This document shows positions 7,914 through 63,875 of a DNA stretch of 64,000 nucleotides, in pieces. The position numbers and the translations under genes were made by a program. The notes beneath the pieces are model-generated. The model searched no databases and had not been told where the DNA came from. It was given only the letters and a program-made list of their open reading frames with translations. Source of the DNA: Sporomusa acidovorans (lineage in GTDB: Bacteria; Bacillota; Negativicutes; Sporomusales; Sporomusaceae); the NCBI RefSeq assembly GCF_900101845.1, contig NZ_FNAM01000016.1, positions 1-64,000 on the forward strand, in the 5' to 3' direction. Within the stretch, counting starts at the first letter, position 1, and the number at the start of each line of letters is the position of its first letter.

Positions 7914-7949
7914 AAGGAGCAGTCTCAATGCTTTTAGACTGCTCCTTTT
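7914..7949 (+). terminator. Rho-independent terminator after the broken porin
   Basis: AAGGAGCAGTCT (7914-7925) pairs with AGACTGCTCCTT (7936-7947) and is followed by TT. It separates the porin remnant from the molybdoenzyme remnant. Confidence 0.8.
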
Positions 7950-7993
7950 GCATACGTTTGTTATATGAACATATCCTGGAGGGAAAAAGTAAG

Positions 7994-10628
7994 ATGATAT
8001 TAGACAGTACGCAATTTTCAGTTATTCTATTTGGCCTGGAAAAGGTTTTGAAAATGACGGCATTGCGTTCGGCCATTTTTGCGGAGCGATTGAAAGAAAA
8101 GAATCTGACAGCCCAAATTAAGCTGCGAGACAATTCCCAAGGCAGGTATTTTATTTTTAAAGATGGCAAAATTTCTTCAAAAGCAGGTATTCATCCCGAT
8201 CCTGATATTGTTATGTCGTTTGAAGATGCAGCAACAGCAGTGAGAATCATGAGCCCTACCAAAACTTTTTTAGAATTTATCAGTTCCGCTAAGAGTTTTC
8301 AGCTTGATATGCGGGGGCCGGACGAATTAGCGATATGGTTTGCGGAAACCTTGAATATGACAATGAATCATAATCCGGATTATGGCCTGGATATGGGCGG
8401 TGGTGTTAAGCGTTATACGAACAACACTAACTGCGGTCCTGTCTTTGTGTATGTAAAAAATGGCAAAATTCTCCGTATTACGCCTACTGATTTTGACGGA
8501 GAGGATGCAGATCCGTGGGTGGTTAAAGCCCGGGGCCAAACCTTCTCGCCACCTAAGAAAACTACGGTTAATCCGCATACTCTGGCCTGGAAATCCATGA
8601 TTTATTCCCCAAATCGGTTGCTGTATCCCATGAAACGCGTGGACTTTGATCCGCATGGCGCAAGAAATCCACAAAACCGGGGCATATCCGGCTATGAACG
8701 GATTAGCTGGAACGAAGCACTCGATATTGTTGTCAATGAAATTAAACGGGTAAAAAGAGAACATGGTCCGGGTGCCATTATGAACGGCAGTGGCTCGCAC
8801 CATACCTGGGGAGCGTTAGGATACTGGCTTAGTGCCAGACTGCGTTTTTTTAACTCGATTGGCTGGACACCGGTAGTTCATAATCCGGATAGCTGGGAAG
8901 GCTGGTTCTGGGGAGCAACGCACCATTGGGGCCAAAGTGCCCGGAATGGGGGCTCGGAGTTCTATAATCTAGTGGAGGACTGCCTGCAGAACTGCGAAAT
9001 GATGGTCTTTTGGTCTAGCGACCCTGAATCTACCAGTGGTGTATATGGTGCAGCCGAAGGCACAGTACGGCGCCAGTGGTTAAAAGAGTTGGGCATTAAG
9101 TTTGTTCATATTGATCCTTATTACAATCATACGGTCGGACTTTTAGGCGGTAAATGGCTGGCACCTAAGCCAGGTACGGACAGTGCTATGGTGTTGGCTA
9201 TCGCTTATGTCTGGATTACCGAGAACCTTTATGATAAGGATTATGTGGATAAGGGGGATGTCGGGTGACATCTTTGGCACCGGTAACTTCCTTAATTTAT
9301 ATCAGCGGATGCCGAATATCGTAACCATGAATACCGTTAAGCAGGGGGTGCCGCGGCTTAAAATTCCCGAGGCCATTATGGAGGGTCACTGTGAAACTTA
9401 TAACGCGGATGCTACCACGATTGAAGGACAGTTCATCCCGCTCAAATACCCCACTCCCGGTTATTCACCGGTAAAAATGTATTATAAATATGGCGGCTCG
9501 CATATTGGCACTATGGTTGACACTAACCGTTATGCAAATATGTATCGCTCCGACGGCCTTGAGTTCGTTGTCAATCAGTCAATTTGGTTTGAGGGAGAAG
9601 CGCAGTTTGCTGACGTAATTTTACCAGCCTGTACGAACTTTGAACGCTGGGACATCAGTGAATTTGCCAATTGCGGCGGCTATATCCACCATTCCTTTAC
9701 CCAGGTCAATCATCGGGTTGCTGTTTTACAGCATAAATGCATTGAACCGCTGGGCGAGTCAAAATCTGATATCGAAATTTTCCTGGAGTTGTCGAAACGC
9801 TTGGGTTTGGGCTCGGTATTTTCCGAAGGATCTACAGAACTGGAATGGTGTAAACGGTTATTTGACGGAACGGATTTGCCTTATAAAATATCCTGGAAAA
9901 AGTTTCTCAAGAAAGGTTACTATGTTATTCCGCCATTGCCGGAAGAGCGACGTGATCCGGTTTCGTTCCGCTGGTATGCGGAAGGCCGGCCTAAGGACAC
10001 CCCGGAACCTTTTCCGGCACCGTCTGACTATACGGAAGCATACCGCATGGGTCTGCAACCGCAGTCAGGCAAATTAGAGTTCGAATCCTCAAGTCTCAAA
10101 CGTTATGACCCCAACGATCCGGAGCGGCCACCTATAATGAAATACGTTCCTGCCTGGGAAGGTCCACATGCCACCGAATTATTTGCCAAGTATCCGTTAC
10201 AGCTTGTTTCGCCACATCCCAAGTTTACCTTTCATACCCAGAGTGACGGCAAGGATAGCATTATTAATGATATAAAGGATCATCGAGTATTAATTAACGG
10301 CCACTATTATTGGATTATCAGGATTAATCCGCAAGACGCCACTGCCCGTGGCATTAGGGAAAATGATTTGGTCAAGGCATTTAATGACCGGGGGGCAGTG
10401 ATTTGTGCAGCCCAATTGACGGAACGTATTCCGCCGGGAATTGTACACTCCTATGAATCTTCTGCTGTTTACAAACCGGTGGGTGAACCTGGAAGATCGC
10501 CGGATCTTGGTGGCTGCGTTAACCTCCTTACTCCCAGTCGGATGATGATAAAAAAATCCCATGGCATGGCCGCTAATTCATGTCTTATTGAAATCACCAA
10601 ATGGAGTGACGAGGAGAGATTTTCATGA
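7994..10628 (+). pseudogene. Broken molybdopterin oxidoreductase, pyrogallol hydroxytransferase (AthL) type, with N-terminal SCP2-like domain
   Basis: ATG 7994 follows GGAGG. Residues 1-125 look like an SCP2 sterol-carrier-like domain (GRYFIFKDGKISSKAG; IVMSFEDAATAVRIM). From about residue 138 the sequence closely follows the large subunit of pyrogallol-phloroglucinol transhydroxylase (DMSO reductase family): GPVFVYVKNGKI, SWNEALDIVV, HNPDSWEGWFWG, MVFWSSDPES. The first frame stops at 9268. The rest resumes in another frame from about 9262 ([14 protein letters not shown]) and runs to 10628 with [16 protein letters not shown] and [11 protein letters not shown]. Compared with the remembered family sequence about 130 residues are absent at the junction. 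A working bis-MGD enzyme is unlikely. Confidence 0.85.
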
Positions 10629-21849: not shown

Positions 21850-22617
21850 TCATAGCTGGTTTATGTGTTTTGCAATCCTAGTTACAGCCTGTAAAGCTAA
21901 AGACTCTTCCGGTAATTTTAATAGTGGTTTTCCTGCAAAGTCATGTTTTTCAACTAACCTGTCATAAGGAATTATGCCCAATATGGGTACACCGATTTCT
22001 TGTGCCATAGTTTCCAAAGGGGTAACGCTGTCTTTGCCTCGATTTAAGACGACACCTATTTGATCGCAGGCCGGAACACAGCCGTTGTCTACCAGCTGTT
22101 TAATATGTTTTACAGTCTGCATGCCTCGATACGATGTATCTGTGACAATAATTAGGGTATTGACTTTATCTACAACCTGACGGTTAATTTGTTCCAGGCC
22201 GGCTTCACCGTCAATTAAAATAGTATCGAAGGTGTTGGAAAGCTGGGCGATGGCATCTCGTAGCAGATCATTTAGAGCGCAAAAGCAGCCTTTTTTATCC
22301 ATGCACCCCATTGCTAGAAAAGAGAAGCCCTTTTCCTCAACCAAGGCTTTAAAGATCATATAATCGAGTTTCTCCACAATAGCGGTTTGGTCCGTTTCGC
22401 CCGCCTGCGCCGCTTTTATTATTTCTTCCCGGACTTTTCCTATTGTCAAATCTGTTGTAAGTCCCAATGAAAAGGGCAGCCCCAGCGCCGGGTCCGCATC
22501 GATCACCAATAATTTCCCGCTGCTTTGTTGCTGGGACAAAACTTTCGTCATCATAGAAGTAAAGGCTGTTTTGCCAACACCGCCCTTACCGCAGACAGCT
22601 ATTATTTTTCGTTCCAA
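21850..22617 (-). CDS. CooC-like P-loop ATPase (MinD/NifH class)
   Basis: A 255-residue protein with the deviant Walker A CGKGGVGKTAF at residues 9-19, VIDADPALGLPFSLG at 38-52 and a CxC pair at Cys111/Cys113 (KKGCFCAL). This matches CooC, the nickel-insertion ATPase for CO dehydrogenase and acetyl-CoA synthase. TTG 22617 with AAGGA was chosen as start because the longer frame only reads through the 5' hairpin. No CO dehydrogenase is visible here. It is the last gene of a set with an AcsB-like protein and a dehydratase/reductase, which suggests maturation of a metal site in one of them (inference). Confidence 0.82.
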   Translation of the reverse strand: MERKIIAVCGKGGVGKTAFTSMMTKVLSQQQSSGKLLVIDADPALGLPFSLGLTTDLTIGKVREEIIKAAQAGETDQTAIVEKLDYMIFKALVEEKGFSFLAMGCMDKKGCFCALNDLLRDAIAQLSNTFDTILIDGEAGLEQINRQVVDKVNTLIIVTDTSYRGMQTVKHIKQLVDNGCVPACDQIGVVLNRGKDSVTPLETMAQEIGVPILGIIPYDRLVEKHDFAGKPLLKLPEESLALQAVTRIAKHINQL

Positions 22618-22647
22618 TTTAATCCTTCTTTCTCTATATAGTATCCA

Positions 22648-22714
22648 ACATGTTGCAGGCAGGTGGTGTATTGGCAAAAATGAAAGTCAAATACGCCACC
22701 TGCCTGCAACATGT
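22648..22714 (-). repeat. Long 25-bp inverted repeat between the AcsB-like and CooC-like genes
   Basis: Arms 22648-22672 and 22690-22714 are complementary at 24 of 25 positions (the exception can be G:U in RNA) around a 17-nt loop. It lies inside the operon, 31 bases before the CooC-like start on the reverse strand. No T-run follows in the operon direction, though one (ATTTTT) follows on the forward strand. It may set mRNA stability or relative expression. Confidence 0.8.
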
Positions 22715-22752
22715 ATTTTTAATGCTGAATACATATTCTATGGACGGAATAA

Positions 22753-23487
22753 CTATTTCGCATATAAAGGTTTCAGTTTATTTGCGACTTCTAGCCCATT
22801 TTCACGTGCTGTAGCGCATAGTTCTTTTGACGAGCATTTTCCGCAATGTCCGGTTTTTATGCACTCATTGACATTAATTCCCCGGTTTTTCCAGACAGAT
22901 TCTTTGATTTTTTTCTGAAACTCATAAATCTTTCCGGCGATAGATTGCCAATGCTGGAATTGTGCTGTGGGAGAAGTAAGATAAAAAACTTGGACATTTG
23001 TTATGTTAGCAAATCTTTTTTTTATGCGTTGAATTAATATTTCTCCTAAGGCAGCAAAAGATAATCCGTCTTTTGCTGCTTGGTTGCTGATACGACACCA
23101 GAAAGTTTGATTGCTTTTCTTTACCATATAGCCGTCCACCTGCATCAATCCGTGCAGCGCTTGTCCTAACAGGTAATACGTTTCTTCATCAAAATTATGT
23201 CCGGCCACTTTCACAATTTGACCAAAAGGTAAAGAGAGTTCCGTTGTATTAAGATCTTCGCCGCACAGGAAGACGCCACTGTCTTTAATATCACTGGGGA
23301 CAATGATCGAGAATGTTGCTTGGCAGCCGCCGAGTTCAATTTTCATATCACTTTTTAGCACAATTCCCGAGCCTCTGCCTTTTTGTAAAAAATAAGACGT
23401 TCTCACATCTGCTAAAGATAGTTTCTGAAAGCACTCGGATGCCATTACGCTATCTATTTGTGCCTCGTACGCTTTAAATTGCTCCAT
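22753..23487 (-). CDS. Acetyl-CoA-synthase (AcsB/CdhC)-like protein lacking the A-cluster domain
   Basis: A 244-residue protein. Residues about 65-195 resemble the central region of acetyl-CoA synthase: SLPFGQIVKVAG, TFWCRISNQAAKDG, LGEILIQRIKKRF and NVQVFYLTSP align by eye with remembered AcsB sequence. The AcsB C-terminal domain that holds the Ni-Fe-S A-cluster is missing. Instead a short Cys motif C209-x5-C215-x2-C218-x5-C224 follows, suitable for a [4Fe-4S] cluster. ATG 23487 follows AAGGCGGTG. It lies 11 bases after the activase gene and upstream of the CooC-like ATPase. A role as electron carrier or assembly factor is a guess. Confidence 0.6.
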   Translation of the reverse strand: MEQFKAYEAQIDSVMASECFQKLSLADVRTSYFLQKGRGSGIVLKSDMKIELGGCQATFSIIVPSDIKDSGVFLCGEDLNTTELSLPFGQIVKVAGHNFDEETYYLLGQALHGLMQVDGYMVKKSNQTFWCRISNQAAKDGLSFAALGEILIQRIKKRFANITNVQVFYLTSPTAQFQHWQSIAGKIYEFQKKIKESVWKNRGINVNECIKTGHCGKCSSKELCATARENGLEVANKLKPLYAK

Positions 23488-23498
23488 AATACACCGCC

Positions 23499-24287
23499 TT
23501 ATTTTGGACACATAGCCCTATCTCTAGCAAAAAGCGCCGCTCCTAACGCACCTGCAATTTGCGGGTTTTCATTAAGCTTTGTAATTTTGCTATGCAATTG
23601 CTGTTCCAAGCTTCGAATTAATGCCTGATTTCTGGCACAACCACCTGTTAGTACAATATCTTCTACAATACCAATTTTATAAACCATCGCATGGATTCTT
23701 CTTGCTATAGAATCATGAATACCCGCAGCTATATCGGAAATTTTGACATTGTTATTCACCAATGTTATTACTTCCGATTCGGCAAACACACTGCATTGTT
23801 TTGATATTGTTTTCGGCGATGTTGATTGCAGCGAATAGTTTACCAGATCATCCAAGGAACAGTCTAACACTCTGCACATAGCTTCAAAAAACCGCCCTGT
23901 TCCTGCTGCGCATTTATCATTCATAGAAAAATCAACGACTTTGCCTGCTTTATTTAAAGAAATAACCTTACAATCCTGGCCGCCTATGTCCACAATTGTT
24001 CTAACAGCAGGATGAAGCCAATGCGCGCCTTTAGCGTGACACGAAATTTCCGATATATCATCTTGAACATAGGAAACATTAGTTCTGCCATAACCTGTAC
24101 CAACAATATAGGACAGGGCATCAACTGAATCAAGCCCAGCTTTCGCTACAGCCTCTTTCATGACTTGTTGGGCAGTGGCCTCCGGTCCATGGGCAGTGCG
24201 AGCAATCGACCATGCTAAAATTTGATCATCTTTTAATATTACAACCTTACCTGTGGTAGAACCAATATCACATCCTGCAACAAACAT
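23499..24287 (-). CDS. ATP-dependent activase of a 2-hydroxyacyl-CoA dehydratase/benzoyl-CoA reductase (BadF/HgdC family)
   Basis: A 262-residue ASKHA-fold ATPase. It has the phosphate loop CDIGSTTGK, DIGGQDCK near residue 100 and NDKCAAGTGRF with Cys126, and a second cysteine Cys165 in KQCSVFAE; two such dimers bridge one [4Fe-4S] cluster in this family. It pumps single low-potential electrons into the partner enzyme with ATP hydrolysis. A single activase gene suggests a homodimer as in HgdC, unlike BcrA/BcrD. It follows the two catalytic subunits by 16 bases and starts at ATG 24287 after GAGGTG. Confidence 0.92.
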   Translation of the reverse strand: MFVAGCDIGSTTGKVVILKDDQILAWSIARTAHGPEATAQQVMKEAVAKAGLDSVDALSYIVGTGYGRTNVSYVQDDISEISCHAKGAHWLHPAVRTIVDIGGQDCKVISLNKAGKVVDFSMNDKCAAGTGRFFEAMCRVLDCSLDDLVNYSLQSTSPKTISKQCSVFAESEVITLVNNNVKISDIAAGIHDSIARRIHAMVYKIGIVEDIVLTGGCARNQALIRSLEQQLHSKITKLNENPQIAGALGAALFARDRAMCPK

Positions 24288-24303
24288 TTACAATCACCTC
24301 GCA

Positions 24304-25611
24304 TTACATGTCTTTGGCCCGCTTAAAACCTGTGGTGCTTAAGAAATTAGAGATATCCTTTTTCAGTTGGTCAAGGGGAGTATACCGTTCATCAAACAGG
24401 CTTGTTGTCAGACCTAAAAGCGGCACCTCCATATCGCGGCATACCTTACGCAGGAAATACTTGGAACCTGACTGATCCTTATGTCCCATATGCCCGCCGT
24501 CAATTACACAGTTGATGCTATAGGTGTTAATAAGATCTGTTACATCATCAATCATTACATCTACAAAGCCGCGTCCCTGGCGAATCATCGGCACTTCAAA
24601 CACTGACCGCCGCGCTAGCCCAAACAGCATGCTTTCTTCGGTAGAGGTATCAATTTTTTCATACGGCGTATTCCCCTGGAAAGACATAACAACAACCGCA
24701 TTCCATTCTTCTTCCAGCCATTTGCCTAACCTTTCTCCCCACTGCGGCGCTAAGTCCGGCCATAAAATACGGATCTGTTCCTTTTCCAGCACACCTTTGC
24801 CGGCAGCTACCGCATCTTTCATCATATCGCGCACCACTGTCATGAGCGCTGTTGCCCGCGGGTCGCCGCACGGCAAATGCTGTGTCAGGGCCCAGAACAT
24901 ATCATCAGTAATGAATGAACCGATTGGGCAGGGACGGGCCTGTTTCAGTTCATTGACTTCTTTCCATACTTCATATTGTCTGTTGGTTTCTTCAACAATT
25001 TCACGGACTTTGGCAAATTCATATTTTGTGCCTGTTGTTTTCTCTAAGAAGGCAATCATATCTTTGAGCTGCTTGGCAACATATTTATAATCTTCGTCAG
25101 TATGCCCGTAGCTGGGGTCAATGATAAAATGAGGTACGTCTTTCCATTCCTTGTTGACCTTAAAGGCCTGATGCAACATAAGTTCACCGTCGCAAGGTTC
25201 GCCCATAGCCAAAAAACAATCCGGTTTCGGATGGAATTGGTTATATACAGAGTATACTGCATAACGGATAAGCGAACACATCTTCTCATCAAGCGGAAAA
25301 TGGTCGCATTCCTTGGCATCTTGATAATCTGTTAATTCCAGATGAAACAATAGCTCGAATACCGGATTATAGTATTTAATCCCCATTCCGGCTGCAATTT
25401 CCTGGGCATTGCCATACCATGTACAGATAAGGGGCTTGTGATTCTCAGCAGCGTCGGTAATATTCTCGTTGTAATCAAGCATTAATTTTAAAAATTTTAT
25501 CTGTACCGGGTTTTGCTCTTCGGCCGGTGCCGATTCCAGCATTTTTAACACTCCGACTACTCTTTCATGATATTCATGAATTCTTTTTAAATCTTTTCTC
25601 ATTTTTGCCAT
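24304..25611 (-). CDS. 2-hydroxyacyl-CoA dehydratase / benzoyl-CoA reductase family subunit (BcrB/HgdB-size)
   Basis: A 435-residue protein of the HGD-D family. Conserved Cys residues that may bind the active-site cluster occur at ICTWYGN, MGEPCDGEL and LPCGDPRA. The C-terminal half has the usual VVVMSFQGNTPYEK and RKVCRDMEVPLLGL strands. Size (435, with a 378-residue partner) is like BcrB/BcrC of ATP-driven benzoyl-CoA reductase or HadB/HadC dehydratases. Which reaction it catalyses, ring reduction or syn-dehydration of a 2-hydroxyacyl-CoA, cannot be told from sequence by eye. It starts at ATG 25611, three bases after the upstream stop. Confidence 0.85.
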   Translation of the reverse strand: MAKMRKDLKRIHEYHERVVGVLKMLESAPAEEQNPVQIKFLKLMLDYNENITDAAENHKPLICTWYGNAQEIAAGMGIKYYNPVFELLFHLELTDYQDAKECDHFPLDEKMCSLIRYAVYSVYNQFHPKPDCFLAMGEPCDGELMLHQAFKVNKEWKDVPHFIIDPSYGHTDEDYKYVAKQLKDMIAFLEKTTGTKYEFAKVREIVEETNRQYEVWKEVNELKQARPCPIGSFITDDMFWALTQHLPCGDPRATALMTVVRDMMKDAVAAGKGVLEKEQIRILWPDLAPQWGERLGKWLEEEWNAVVVMSFQGNTPYEKIDTSTEESMLFGLARRSVFEVPMIRQGRGFVDVMIDDVTDLINTYSINCVIDGGHMGHKDQSGSKYFLRKVCRDMEVPLLGLTTSLFDERYTPLDQLKKDISNFLSTTGFKRAKDM

Positions 25612-25614
25612 GGC

Positions 25615-26751
25615 TCATGCCTCCTCCATTGTTTCTAAGAATGCTTGCACGCGTGTTTTTAACTGCCCCACGCTATCTAAAATATATTCCACTTCTAAAT
25701 TTAAAATAGGAATATTCTGCTCTTTAAAGAAATTCGGCAGAATAAACTGTACAAAGGCCATTTGATCACATTCTGTGAGCCTGGCGGTAATAACGCCATC
25801 GATTTGGAATGCTTTGACAATCTCTGTCATACTTTCAAGACGTTTGTCCAAAGTACCGAATTGACGCTGGGTAACTGCTCTGGTATAAAAGTAGAAGTCA
25901 ATAATTGCCTGCAGGGGATCGCTGCTTGTGGAAATTTCGCCTTCAGCTGCTTTGTAGCCTATACTGTTATAATCGGCAACAATGGTCGCACCTTGGCTTT
26001 CTAAAGCTTCCATGAACTTAATATCATCGTCATGGATGCCAATATAAAGCAACCTTTTTTGTTTTTTCTGAGATTGTTCAGGAGCTTTTTCTGTTAATTC
26101 ATGCAGCAGTTCTGTCAATAATTCATTATAGCGTTTGCGCGGCATAGCGGTAGCGGCAAGCATGACGGCCCTGGTGTCAGCGCCGCTGAGCGGCGGGACG
26201 GGCCGTTTTTTAAGCTCATAGATTTTGCGCTGCAGTCTTCGGGTTTCATTATGCAGCATGATGGCCTCTTTGAGCATGTTATCTGTAATGGTTACACCAA
26301 ATTTTTCTTCTGTTTTTTGTTTAAATTGTATAATTTCTTTTTCGTAAAATTCTCTGGCAAGAGCGTCATTTTTTTTAGGTAAATATATAAATGCATAGCA
26401 AGGATTTTCAGGTATGGTAAGCCAGTTATCATAAATTCGGCGCATATGATCGCACTGGTTAAATACAACCGCGCCGTCTAGGAATTTATATTCTCCCTGT
26501 AGGATCTGTTCGAAGGTAGAGCGCGTATAGCCGCAGTTTAACTGGCGGAAATAGGCGTCGGCCAGTTCTGTTCCCGTACTGCCTGTTCCCCGGATACCAA
26601 ACGCAAGAACACCGGCGGCGGTCAGAATTTCTTCCGGTACAGCCGGATAAAAATAGCCGGCGACTTTTCCGCCTTGTTCCTTCCAGGCGGCGACTTCGGA
26701 ATTATAGATGGTTGATGCGGCTTCTTTAAAAATTTCCATTGCTTTTTTCAT
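25615..26751 (-). CDS. 2-hydroxyacyl-CoA dehydratase / benzoyl-CoA reductase family subunit (BcrC/HgdA-size)
   Basis: A 378-residue partner subunit of the HGD-D family. Candidate cluster cysteines are QLNCGYTRS, FNQCDHMRR and LTECDQMAF, the typical three-site spacing. The opening PAVPEEILTAAGVLAFGIRG is the family signature. ATG 26751 follows AAAGGAG; the 13 upstream codons of the open frame have no ribosome site. It is the first gene of a five-gene reverse-strand set (two subunits, activase, AcsB-like, CooC-like) lying after a porin gene. Confidence 0.87.
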   Translation of the reverse strand: MKKAMEIFKEAASTIYNSEVAAWKEQGGKVAGYFYPAVPEEILTAAGVLAFGIRGTGSTGTELADAYFRQLNCGYTRSTFEQILQGEYKFLDGAVVFNQCDHMRRIYDNWLTIPENPCYAFIYLPKKNDALAREFYEKEIIQFKQKTEEKFGVTITDNMLKEAIMLHNETRRLQRKIYELKKRPVPPLSGADTRAVMLAATAMPRKRYNELLTELLHELTEKAPEQSQKKQKRLLYIGIHDDDIKFMEALESQGATIVADYNSIGYKAAEGEISTSSDPLQAIIDFYFYTRAVTQRQFGTLDKRLESMTEIVKAFQIDGVITARLTECDQMAFVQFILPNFFKEQNIPILNLEVEYILDSVGQLKTRVQAFLETMEEA

Positions 26752-26778: not shown

Positions 26779-26816
26779 AGCAAGATTCACATCCTAAAGA
26801 ATATGAATCTCTCGCT
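26779..26816 (-). terminator. Hairpin between the porin and the dehydratase operon
   Basis: AGCAAGATTCA (26779-26789) pairs with most of TGAATCTCTCGCT (26804-26816), with a 2-nt bulge. It lies 8 bases after the porin stop and may end most porin transcripts or act as a partial terminator before the operon. Confidence 0.5.
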
Positions 26817-62109: not shown

Positions 62110-63105
62110 ATGGCGCGCATCGGCCTGACAACAACGGTGCCTGTTGAAATTATTTTGGCGGCAGGACATGTGCCTGTTGATCTTAACAATATATTTATTA
62201 CCAGCGAGCAGGCCGGACGGATGGTGGAAACAGCTGAGGAGGCCGGATATCCCCGGAACATTTGCGGCTGGATAAAAGGATTATATGCCGTCATGGTAAA
62301 TAAAGAATTTAACGATGCCTGCGGCGGAATTGACAAGGTTATTGCCGTTACCCAGGGGGATTGCAGCAACACGCATGCGCTGATGGAGACCTACCAGTTG
62401 GCAGGCATTGAAACCATTCCTTTTGCCTATCCCGTTGACCGCGACTATGATCTCCTGAAGCTGCAAATGGAAAAGTTAATGGCGGCGCTGGGAACCAATT
62501 GGCAGGATGTTAACCGTGTTAAACGCGAACTGGACAAACTGCGCCTCCGGGTGGCTGAACTTGACAGGCGCACGTGGCAGGATAATACAATAAGCGGTTT
62601 TCATAATCATTTGTATCAGGTTAGTTGCAGTGATTTTAACAGCAATGTGGAACTCTTTGCCGGCGATGTTGAGCAGTTCTTAGTGAAGGCGGATGATGCT
62701 TCCGAATATACGGATGAACTTAGATTAGGCTATATCGGCGTGCCGCCTATTTTTACCGATTTATATCCTTATGTAGAGTCAATGGGGGCCCGGATTGTTT
62801 ATAATGAGGTGCAACGGCAGTTTGCGATGCCGTTTGTTACTGACGACCTTGTTGAACAATACCGGCTGTATACTTATCCCTATGGTGTTTTTGGCCGGAT
62901 TAAGGATATCGCGGCCGAAATTGAACGGCGTAATCTGGACGGACTGGTTCATTATGTGCAGAGTTTTTGTTTCCGTCAGATTGAAGATATCATTTTACGG
63001 GAAAAACTCGACATACCCATTTTGACAATCGAAGGTGACAAGCCAGGAAAACTGGATGCCAGAACCAGACTGCGGCTGGAAAGTTTTCTGGAGATGCTGC
63101 GTTAA
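62110..63105 (+). CDS. 2-hydroxyacyl-CoA dehydratase-family protein (HgdB/double-cubane protein type)
   Basis: A 331-residue HGD-D family protein, one subunit only. It starts IGLTTTVPVEIILAAGHVPVDLN. Conserved Cys residues lie in RNICGWIKG, DACGGID, TQGDCSNTH and QSFCFRQIED. A single-subunit member with its own activase resembles double-cubane cluster proteins or uncharacterised HgdB-like proteins, whose natural substrates are unknown. ATG 62110 follows AGGAGG. The activase gene begins 14 bases after its stop. Confidence 0.82.
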   Translation: MARIGLTTTVPVEIILAAGHVPVDLNNIFITSEQAGRMVETAEEAGYPRNICGWIKGLYAVMVNKEFNDACGGIDKVIAVTQGDCSNTHALMETYQLAGIETIPFAYPVDRDYDLLKLQMEKLMAALGTNWQDVNRVKRELDKLRLRVAELDRRTWQDNTISGFHNHLYQVSCSDFNSNVELFAGDVEQFLVKADDASEYTDELRLGYIGVPPIFTDLYPYVESMGARIVYNEVQRQFAMPFVTDDLVEQYRLYTYPYGVFGRIKDIAAEIERRNLDGLVHYVQSFCFRQIEDIILREKLDIPILTIEGDKPGKLDARTRLRLESFLEMLR

Positions 63106-63119
63106 TAAGGAGGAGACCA

Positions 63120-63875
63120 ATGCGCTGTGGGATTGATTTAGGTAGTCGTAGTGTTAAGCTGGTTATCCTGGATGATGCCAAACAACTAAAGTCAACAAAT
63201 ATCTATGAGACGGCCAGGTTTTACCGGGATTACGGCCATCGGACAGAGGCAGGACTGGCAGTCGATTTTGCTGCCCTGGGGTATCGGGAAGTTACCCGGC
63301 TTACAGCCACCGGTTACGGCCGCAATACGATTGAGCTTGTCGGTGCAACCGTAATTCCTGAATTAAAGGCACATATGTTAGGGGCGATTGCCCAAACCGG
63401 ATTAACGGATTTTACCCTGCTGGATTTAGGCGGCCAGGATAGTAAAGTGATCAAAGTCCGCAAGGGGCGCATGGCCGACTTTCAGACTAATGACAAATGT
63501 GCGGCAAGTACCGGCCGCTATTTGGAGAATATGGCCGCAGTACTTGACATCAGTTTAGAGGAATTAGCAAATTATAGCGTCAATCCGGTGGAACTTAGCG
63601 CTACCTGTGCTATTTTTGGCGAATCGGAGCTAATCGGCCGGATCGTGGAGGGGTACAGCATCGCTGAATTGGCCGCCGGTGTCAATTATACGATTTACAA
63701 GCGGATAAAACCCATGTTGGTGGCCATGAGGAGTGATAAACTCGTTTTTACAGGCGGTGTTGCCCTGGGCGGGGCGATTAAAGAATTTATTACCCGGGAA
63801 ATGGATATTGAGGTGATTGTACCCGAATATCCCCAACTTAACGGTGCAATTGGTTGTGCCGTGTATGAAAGTTAG
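63120..63875 (+). CDS. Activase for the HgdB-like protein (BadF/HgdC family)
   Basis: A 251-residue ASKHA ATPase with CGIDLGSRSVK, LDLGGQDSK near 102, NDKCAASTGRY with Cys127 and ATCAIFGESE with Cys163, the two cluster ligands. DLGSRS replaces the DIGSTT of the first activase, so the two are not recent copies. It should reduce the protein encoded just upstream at the cost of ATP. Confidence 0.9.
   Translation: MRCGIDLGSRSVKLVILDDAKQLKSTNIYETARFYRDYGHRTEAGLAVDFAALGYREVTRLTATGYGRNTIELVGATVIPELKAHMLGAIAQTGLTDFTLLDLGGQDSKVIKVRKGRMADFQTNDKCAASTGRYLENMAAVLDISLEELANYSVNPVELSATCAIFGESELIGRIVEGYSIAELAAGVNYTIYKRIKPMLVAMRSDKLVFTGGVALGGAIKEFITREMDIEVIVPEYPQLNGAIGCAVYES

Follow-up and report, generated by a model that had tools for sequence, protein, structure and literature searches.

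Class I benzoyl-CoA reductases (BCRs) and 2-hydroxyacyl-CoA dehydratases (HADs) are iron-sulfur enzymes that operate near the lower limit of biological redox potentials. Here, we analyzed an operon within a 64,000-nucleotide stretch of Sporomusa acidovorans DNA (contig NZ_FNAM01000016.1, positions 1 to 64,000; hereafter the window), in which the genes of a predicted enzyme of this kind (HGD1, HGD2 and an activase, ACT) are followed by two more: one for a protein related to acetyl-CoA synthase (ACS), which we call ACSL, and one for a CooC/AcsF-type ATPase. The five-gene set runs from 26751 to 21850 on the minus strand, with all frames open and co-directional. As judged from sequence, the operon enzyme belongs to a BCR/HAD superfamily branch whose partners are unfamiliar, and the partnership of an ACS fragment and a maturation-type ATPase with a dehydratase-type radical enzyme looks real. 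The features of the locus are listed below; genomes, contigs and loci are designated G, C and L throughout.

HGD1, 25615..26751, minus strand: HGD-D subunit, BzdN/HadC-like; ATG start at 26751, with GTG at 26790 as the alternative start of the open reading frame (ORF)
HGD1 Cys73 (ATG numbering), 26533..26535, minus strand: one of three retained cluster cysteines (Cys73, Cys100, Cys328)
HGD2, 24304..25611, minus strand: second HGD-D subunit, probably catalytic
HGD2 His377, 24481..24483, minus strand: occupies the site of the third catalytic-cluster Cys (HadB Cys346)
HGD2 Cys391, 24439..24441, minus strand: present in every one of the 25 rows with His377
ACT, 23499..24287, minus strand: BadF/HgdC-type activase ATPase
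ACSL, 22753..23487, minus strand: 244-residue protein, kin to the ACS middle domain, with PF03598 and Protein Data Bank (PDB) matches
ACSL Cys209-Cys224 motif C-x5-C-x2-C-x5-C, 22816..22863, minus strand: last three Cys opposite A-cluster Cys 1-3
CooC/AcsF-type ATPase, 21850..22617, minus strand: TTG start at 22617; deviant Walker A motif GKGGVGKT and CxC (GCFC)
Perfect-arm hairpin, 22654..22708, no strand assigned: in the gap between the ACSL and ATPase genes

Each of the closest described systems shares some of these features. The class I BCRs BzdNOPQ and MbdONQP likewise combine two HGD-D subunits with one or more activases, and the six cysteines of their [8Fe-9S] cluster are found in the HGD1 of most relatives of the window operon; the window HGD1, in contrast, has three of the six, HGD2 has histidine as third ligand, there is one activase, and ACSL and the ATPase are added. 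With HadBC the window shares the single-cubane cysteine set of HGD1 (Cys73, 100 and 328) and an HGD2 profile nearest HadB. It differs in its HGD2 ligands (Cys, Cys and His377 instead of three Cys), in scoring far below the NCBIfam cut-offs and, again, in the two added genes. The middle domain of ACS (AcsB/CdhC) is homologous to ACSL and its first three A-cluster cysteines are collinear with those of ACSL, whereas ACSL lacks the N-terminal domain that binds carbon monoxide dehydrogenase (CODH), the CGC nickel ligands and Trp418, is 244 residues long compared with about 400-730, and sits with HGD genes. Similarly, the operon ATPases share the deviant Walker A and CxC motifs of AcsF and CooC and appear to group near AcsF, but they mostly form a separate branch and are encoded with HGD genes even where ACS and CODH are lacking (genome G040). 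A more distant parallel is a putative isoprene reductase operon of Acetobacterium wieringae, described in the available part of PMC10134865, in which a reductase is encoded with nickel chaperone genes, its metal not being shown; that reductase is an unrelated FAD/Fe-S protein, and HypA/HypB take the place of CooC/AcsF. No description of the five-gene set was found in the literature searched, whose coverage stopped short of subscription papers and preprints, and absence in print is not proven.

A first-pass annotation, made from the sequence alone, had proposed two HGD-D subunits and an activase, followed by a protein resembling the central part of ACS and a CooC-type ATPase with CxC. The former three are borne out by Pfam: PF06050 was matched by HGD1 at 267.2 bits (scored on the ORF from 26790) and by HGD2 at 142.1 bits (cut-off 28.4), and BcrAD_BadFG by ACT at 203.3 bits (cut-off 31.5). 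ACT additionally scored 248.2 bits with TIGR00241 (cut-off 125.4) and had 4eht_A as its best PDB match (4.3e-67). The resemblance of ACSL to ACS was recovered as well. ACSL scored 64.3 bits with PF03598 CdhC (cut-off 24), and the ACSL proteins of all ten genomes compared for ACS content exceeded this cut-off. All 15 PDB matches obtained with ACSL alone as query (best 5e-9 at E up to 1) and all 15 of a profile of 11 ACSL relatives (E up to 0.1; best 2.6e-21) were ACS or archaeal ACS beta, so that a relation to AcsB-type proteins is present when tested by profile search. The matched region is the ACS middle domain, corresponding to chain residues 332-484 of the C. hydrogenoformans enzyme. Structural comparison with AcsB, also suggested in the annotation, gave weak support: using the predicted ACSL structure, ACS chains occupied Foldseek ranks 1 to 22, the best E was 0.0022 and none fell below 0.001. 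Mean predicted local distance difference test scores (pLDDT) were low at 50.4 for ACSL and 39.3 for HGD2, and therefore no geometry was drawn from either model.

The likeness extends into the first part of the A-cluster motif. In a joint alignment (106 ACS sequences thinned to 25), the ACS motif FYSCxxCQSFAPxHVC stands opposite xxxCxxC, a three-residue gap and a third cysteine in ACSL, in collinear arrangement. When the ACSL profile was aligned with 105 ACS sequences, the alignment extended to the A-cluster CxxC in 36, with CxxC in register in 36 of 36. ACSL ends after the third cysteine, without the fourth cubane cysteine and without the CGC nickel ligands; a complete A-cluster comprises four cubane cysteines and CGC as nickel ligands. 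Among ACSL relatives, all four cysteines of the motif are present in 35 of 42 and CxxC-x5-C in 41 of 42. The claim that ACSL lacks the A-cluster domain and carries a Cys4 motif of its own thus stands in part: the remainder of the domain is missing, but the motif is not wholly ACSL's own, since CxxC and the third cysteine line up with A-cluster cysteines 1-3.

By its sequence relationships, ACSL is a family of its own and falls outside ACS. A quick tree, calculated without bootstrap for 42 ACSL rows and 24 ACS rows (thinned from 106), split the two by a branch with a support of 97 in the SH-like approximate likelihood ratio test (SH-aLRT), and the idea of ACSL as a truncated acs gene was rejected. 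Among the matches listed in a genome search, scores were 164 to 292 bits for ACSL rows and at most 83 bits for ACS rows; a 102-residue ACSL fragment in G1322 (65.6 bits) was not counted. The 11 ACSL proteins scanned matched four NCBIfam models, all of them ACS. Since only ACS models were matched, and the window ACSL reached about 61 bits with whole-enzyme models whose cut-offs are 800-809, no curated NCBIfam model names the ACSL family.

In all, 42 ACSL loci were found, spread over 35 genomes and two phyla. Genomes with ACSL account for 3 of 300 in the window's class, 6 of 97 in a second class of the same phylum (one of these six also being among 398 drawn from the phylum), 2 of the 400 sampled in G767's phylum, and a further 24 of 343 in G1106's class. 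G111 is S. silvacetica, from the same genus as the window, and the G767 locus (L089) is recorded as that of an uncultured member of the Dehalococcoidia (Chloroflexota). The plasmid search gave no match, viral contigs gave none that was confirmed, and genome contigs gave 2 loci. HGD-D and/or activase genes adjoin ACSL at 39 of 39 assessable loci, the other three (L159, L170, L187) running into contig ends; in G701 and G724, activase genes or a piece of one are all that remains on the contig beside ACSL. The exact order HGD1-HGD2-ACT-ACSL-ATPase was seen in the window, G040, G111, G1106 and 10 of 31 further loci. Variants carry a second activase (G456, G712, G721, L175), a second HGD2 (L160, L161, L177) or an activase upstream of an HGD pair (L164, L166, L169, L181).

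We distinguished two locus types. At 32 of the 33 type A loci, ACSL is directly followed by the ATPase gene, and no ATPase was found in the 472 nucleotides of contig beyond ACSL in L163. In type B (9 loci), ACSL is preceded by an ORF of ~146 residues, sterol-carrier-like by eye and without a Pfam match, and an activase between HGD2 and ACSL was not seen in four loci (L182, L183, L184, L186). A type A locus occurs as well in seven of the nine type B genomes; among the matches listed, G767 and G1297 have none. The ends of contigs C281 and C266 of G767 overlap exactly by 99 bases, which would put an ATPase upstream of HGD1. By these counts, the last two genes do stay with the dehydratase genes in other genomes, the condition set in the annotation. 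We consider the assignment of the ACSL-ATPase pair to an ATP-driven HGD/BCR-type enzyme to be well supported. At three checked loci of G1106's class (L174, L166, L178), the operon is neighbored by acyl-CoA genes, encoding acyl-CoA dehydrogenase-, thioesterase-, thiolase-, ChsH2- and enoyl-CoA hydratase-like proteins. Based on these neighbors and on homology, we infer that the operon enzyme likely acts on a CoA ester.

The last protein looks like a CooC-type ATPase with CxC, as annotated. It matched AAA_31/CbiA in Pfam, its best PDB match was CooC (3KJE, 1.8e-11), with GCFC opposite the GSQCYC-type CxC of CooC, and its best NCBIfam model was minD_arch, far below cut-off. We compared 34 ATPases including that of the window (32 of type A, that of G767 and that of L097), of which 33 have the deviant Walker A motif and 34 the CxC. 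In a tree of 26 rows, none named MinD, the operon ATPases lay near AcsF, with branch support around the group of 83/76 and 89/84. As G767's ATPase fell inside the AcsF clade (98/96) and the other ten ACSL-linked ATPases elsewhere, mostly on a branch of their own, the ATPase-ACSL link appears to have arisen at least twice (starred branches). Locus L097 (2108-10938; S. silvacetica, G111 C143) is a second BCR/HAD-like operon, in the order HGD1-HGD2-ATPase-FAD protein-two activases-enoyl-CoA hydratase-like gene. Further, AcsF-like ATPase genes adjoin apparent MoxR-type AAA and VWA genes at L099, L103, L104, L105, L108 and L109 in six genomes.

The HGD proteins themselves deviate from described enzymes. 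HGD1 was closest in the PDB to BzdN (8s02_B, 6.5e-37) and HGD2 to BzdO (8s02_A, 1.1e-10); a profile of six other HGD2 proteins was nearest HadB (3.1e-27), with BzdO fourth. All specific NCBIfam models were missed, namely bzdN (136.1 bits, cut-off 453.8), bzdO (42.9 bits, cut-off 448.6), the double-cubane model NF040772 (HGD1 186.6 bits, cut-off 350) and, by far, HadB/C and bcrB/C. According to the available part of PMC11971306, [8Fe-9S] is bound by Cys36/73/100/263/293/327 of BzdN and the catalytic [4Fe-4S]-OH2 by Cys95/128/380 of BzdO. The six [8Fe-9S] cysteines are complete in 33 of 39 HGD1 rows and 3 partial rows have Cys wherever readable; the window, G040 and G111 carry Tyr, Ser and Thr at three of the six places. 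In the window HGD1, Cys73, Cys100 and Cys328 are kept and Tyr35, Ser263 and Thr294 occupy the other places. The first two HGD2 ligands are Cys in all 44 readable rows (Cys112 and Cys140 in the window), and the third place lies opposite HadB Cys346 (numbered by counting along the printed alignment). Of the 46 rows readable there, 25 have His, including the window (His377), and 21 have Cys. Fourteen residues further on, at 391, all 25 His rows have Cys, compared with 2 of the 21 Cys rows. One of the 47 HGD2 rows is gapped at 377/391 and three are gapped at 112/140. Second HGD pairs from the same stretches are counted among the HGD rows, as is operon L097, which has no ACSL; HGD copies of at most 200 residues in G1106-class loci were left out. 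We know of no His ligand at the third catalytic-cluster place in this family, a point that was not searched for separately. By the tested ligands, the window enzyme is not an ordinary class I BCR, and it is not an ordinary HAD either. The ATPase was also considered as a marker of His-type HGD2 and dropped, the G456 class having an ATPase with Cys.

Genome G040 (completeness 100, contamination 5) separates the pair from ACS. Its sole CdhC match is its ACSL, no CODH over cut-off was found (one match, 30.5 bits compared with a cut-off of 478), and its operon ATPase scored 388.7 bits, the next ATPase 42.9. Since G040 has both ACSL and the ATPase without ACS and without CODH over cut-off, the two need not serve ACS; a pair serving ACS alone is rejected on the basis of this genome, in which no second ATPase comes near that of the operon. 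The argument is that of one genome. ACS was not found in G711 and G712 either, whose completeness is 64 and 83%.

We propose that HGD1, HGD2 and the activase would form a radical enzyme of the class I BCR/HAD superfamily, driven by ATP and working at low potential, which would have its own metal-loading pair, kin to the ACS system. ACSL corresponds to the ACS middle domain together with the first part of the cubane motif of the A-cluster, and the AcsF/CooC-type ATPase would load a metal ion onto its Cys site, our guess being nickel as the most likely metal. ACSL may then belong to the HGD enzyme as an accessory subunit, or be a scaffold that passes the loaded center to this enzyme, the direction of transfer being likewise a guess. 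AcsF is cited as the maturation protein in a CODH/ACS operon in the available part of PMC10134865. That the ATPase serves the ACSL Cys site, and that ACSL either belongs to the HGD enzyme or acts as its donor, is a reading we adopt tentatively, at somewhat less than even confidence. It is favored by the computed homologies and collinear Cys motif (ACSL matching ACS alone in the PDB, the A-cluster CxxC in register), by the conserved gene set (HGD-D/activase genes beside all assessable loci, the ATPase after nearly every type A ACSL, CxC in every ATPase), by the presence of the pair in G040 without ACS/CODH, and by the altered cluster ligands, His377 and Cys391 changing in step. The more specific idea of a nickel- or other heterometal-containing branch, in which a stripped-down A-cluster on ACSL, loaded by the AcsF-type ATPase, works with or is handed to the His-ligated catalytic cluster, seems possible and somewhat unlikely; if true, nickel-iron-sulfur and ATP-driven radical chemistry would be found in one complex.

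Several findings weigh against loading of a metal onto ACSL. ACSL is without the Ni ligands of ACS, and in the joint alignment Trp418 (Moorella number, computed from Cys506) and the nearby basic stretch GRKMQ...ERR are absent; Trp418 of ACS is presumably tied to CoA. No type B locus (0 of 9) has the ATPase directly downstream, so that the ATPase is not always beside ACSL (9 of 42 loci), and G1297 shows neither an upstream ATPase nor a type A locus among the matches listed. L097 is an HGD operon with a CooC-like ATPase yet without ACSL. In the PDB, MinD proteins came next for the ATPase at 2.8e-10, close to CooC. The G456 class and L175-L177 pair an ATPase with ordinary Cys at 377, and ATPase and His377 are therefore not strictly coupled. 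Lastly, ACS is present in 7 of 10 ACSL hosts examined, and shared habitat could thus explain part of the co-occurrence.

The same observations can be read in other ways. Retention of three to four cysteines (CxxC-x5-C in 41 of 42) without a Ni_d site would also fit a nickel-free ACSL acting as a plain [4Fe-4S] electron-transfer or docking subunit, with the CooC-like protein as a second, NifH-like ATP-driven electron donor or switch, working with or replacing the activase. In its favor, four type B loci (L182, L183, L184, L186) showed no activase from HGD2 to ACSL; these loci are without the ATPase too, however, and the ATPase is more closely related to AcsF and CooC than to NifH. We consider this reading unlikely. 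The pair might instead serve to assemble an iron-sulfur cluster for the HGD subunits or to insert it, either the double cubane or the His-ligated catalytic one, with ACSL as a scaffold outside the finished enzyme. The six [8Fe-9S] cysteines of most HGD1 rows (33 of 39), the altered catalytic ligand set in 25 of 46 HGD2 rows and the available part of PMC11971306, which names no dedicated maturation factor, are consistent with such a role. We consider it quite unlikely, however, as the window, G040 and G111 retain the pair despite the loss of three of six cysteines and, according to the same part of PMC11971306, the BzdNO active site subunits were produced without such a pair.

Since the ACS middle domain interacts with CoA, ACSL could also be a CoA- or acyl-CoA-handling subunit that presents or releases the CoA ester, the ATPase being a folding or maturation helper only. 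A statement on the autoethanogenum ACS in the available part of PMC12289521 and the neighboring acyl-CoA enzymes point this way; Trp418, with its presumed CoA link, and GRKMQ...ERR are not retained in ACSL, however, and we judge this role improbable. Finally, the neighborhood might reflect a shared acetogenic lifestyle only, with ACSL and the ATPase serving ACS or CODH and unconnected to the HGD enzyme. ACS in 7 of 10 host genomes agrees with this, but G040, unless both enzymes are missing from its assembly, contradicts it in having neither ACS nor CODH over cut-off, and all 39 assessable loci adjoin HGD-D and/or activase genes, leaving this explanation highly improbable.

A branch that combines a protein derived from ACS, an ATPase of the AcsF type and an altered cluster ligand would reveal either a second metal in the superfamily or an unknown route of cluster building. 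It also shows that part of ACS, a nickel enzyme considered to be very ancient, has relatives at work beyond the Wood-Ljungdahl pathway. Genomes like G040, with the set present and no ACS/CODH over cut-off, make the question directly testable.

Around the operon, a multihaem cytochrome gene is found in three Negativicutes-type loci (by Pfam in the window and by eye in L064 and L065), and putative cytochrome c maturation genes (by eye) are found near the operon in the same three loci. The hairpin at 22654-22708 has 19-base arms and is the single genome site at zero mismatches; the intergenic gap between ACSL and ATPase genes is shorter in G040 and G111 than in the window. Elsewhere in the window, an apparent molybdopterin oxidoreductase (by eye) extends over two overlapping frames, 7928-9268 and 9183-10628, a possible frameshift, and further HGD-D-like and activase-like genes (by eye) lie at the window end (62110-63875).

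Some ACS genes encountered during the comparison were themselves unusual. In L142 (3783-12422; G1106 C84), two CdhC-like proteins of 454 and 481 residues are each followed by a protein of ~835 residues, CODH-like by eye, with methylmalonyl-CoA-mutase-like genes nearby. The second ACS match of G000 (C23:37037-37495, L002) has one in-frame TGA, which may indicate a pseudogene, recoding or a sequence error. In L114 (G952 C29), a 1466-residue ACS frame is apparently split at the CGC motif of its A-cluster, where an insert resembling an intein was noted by eye.

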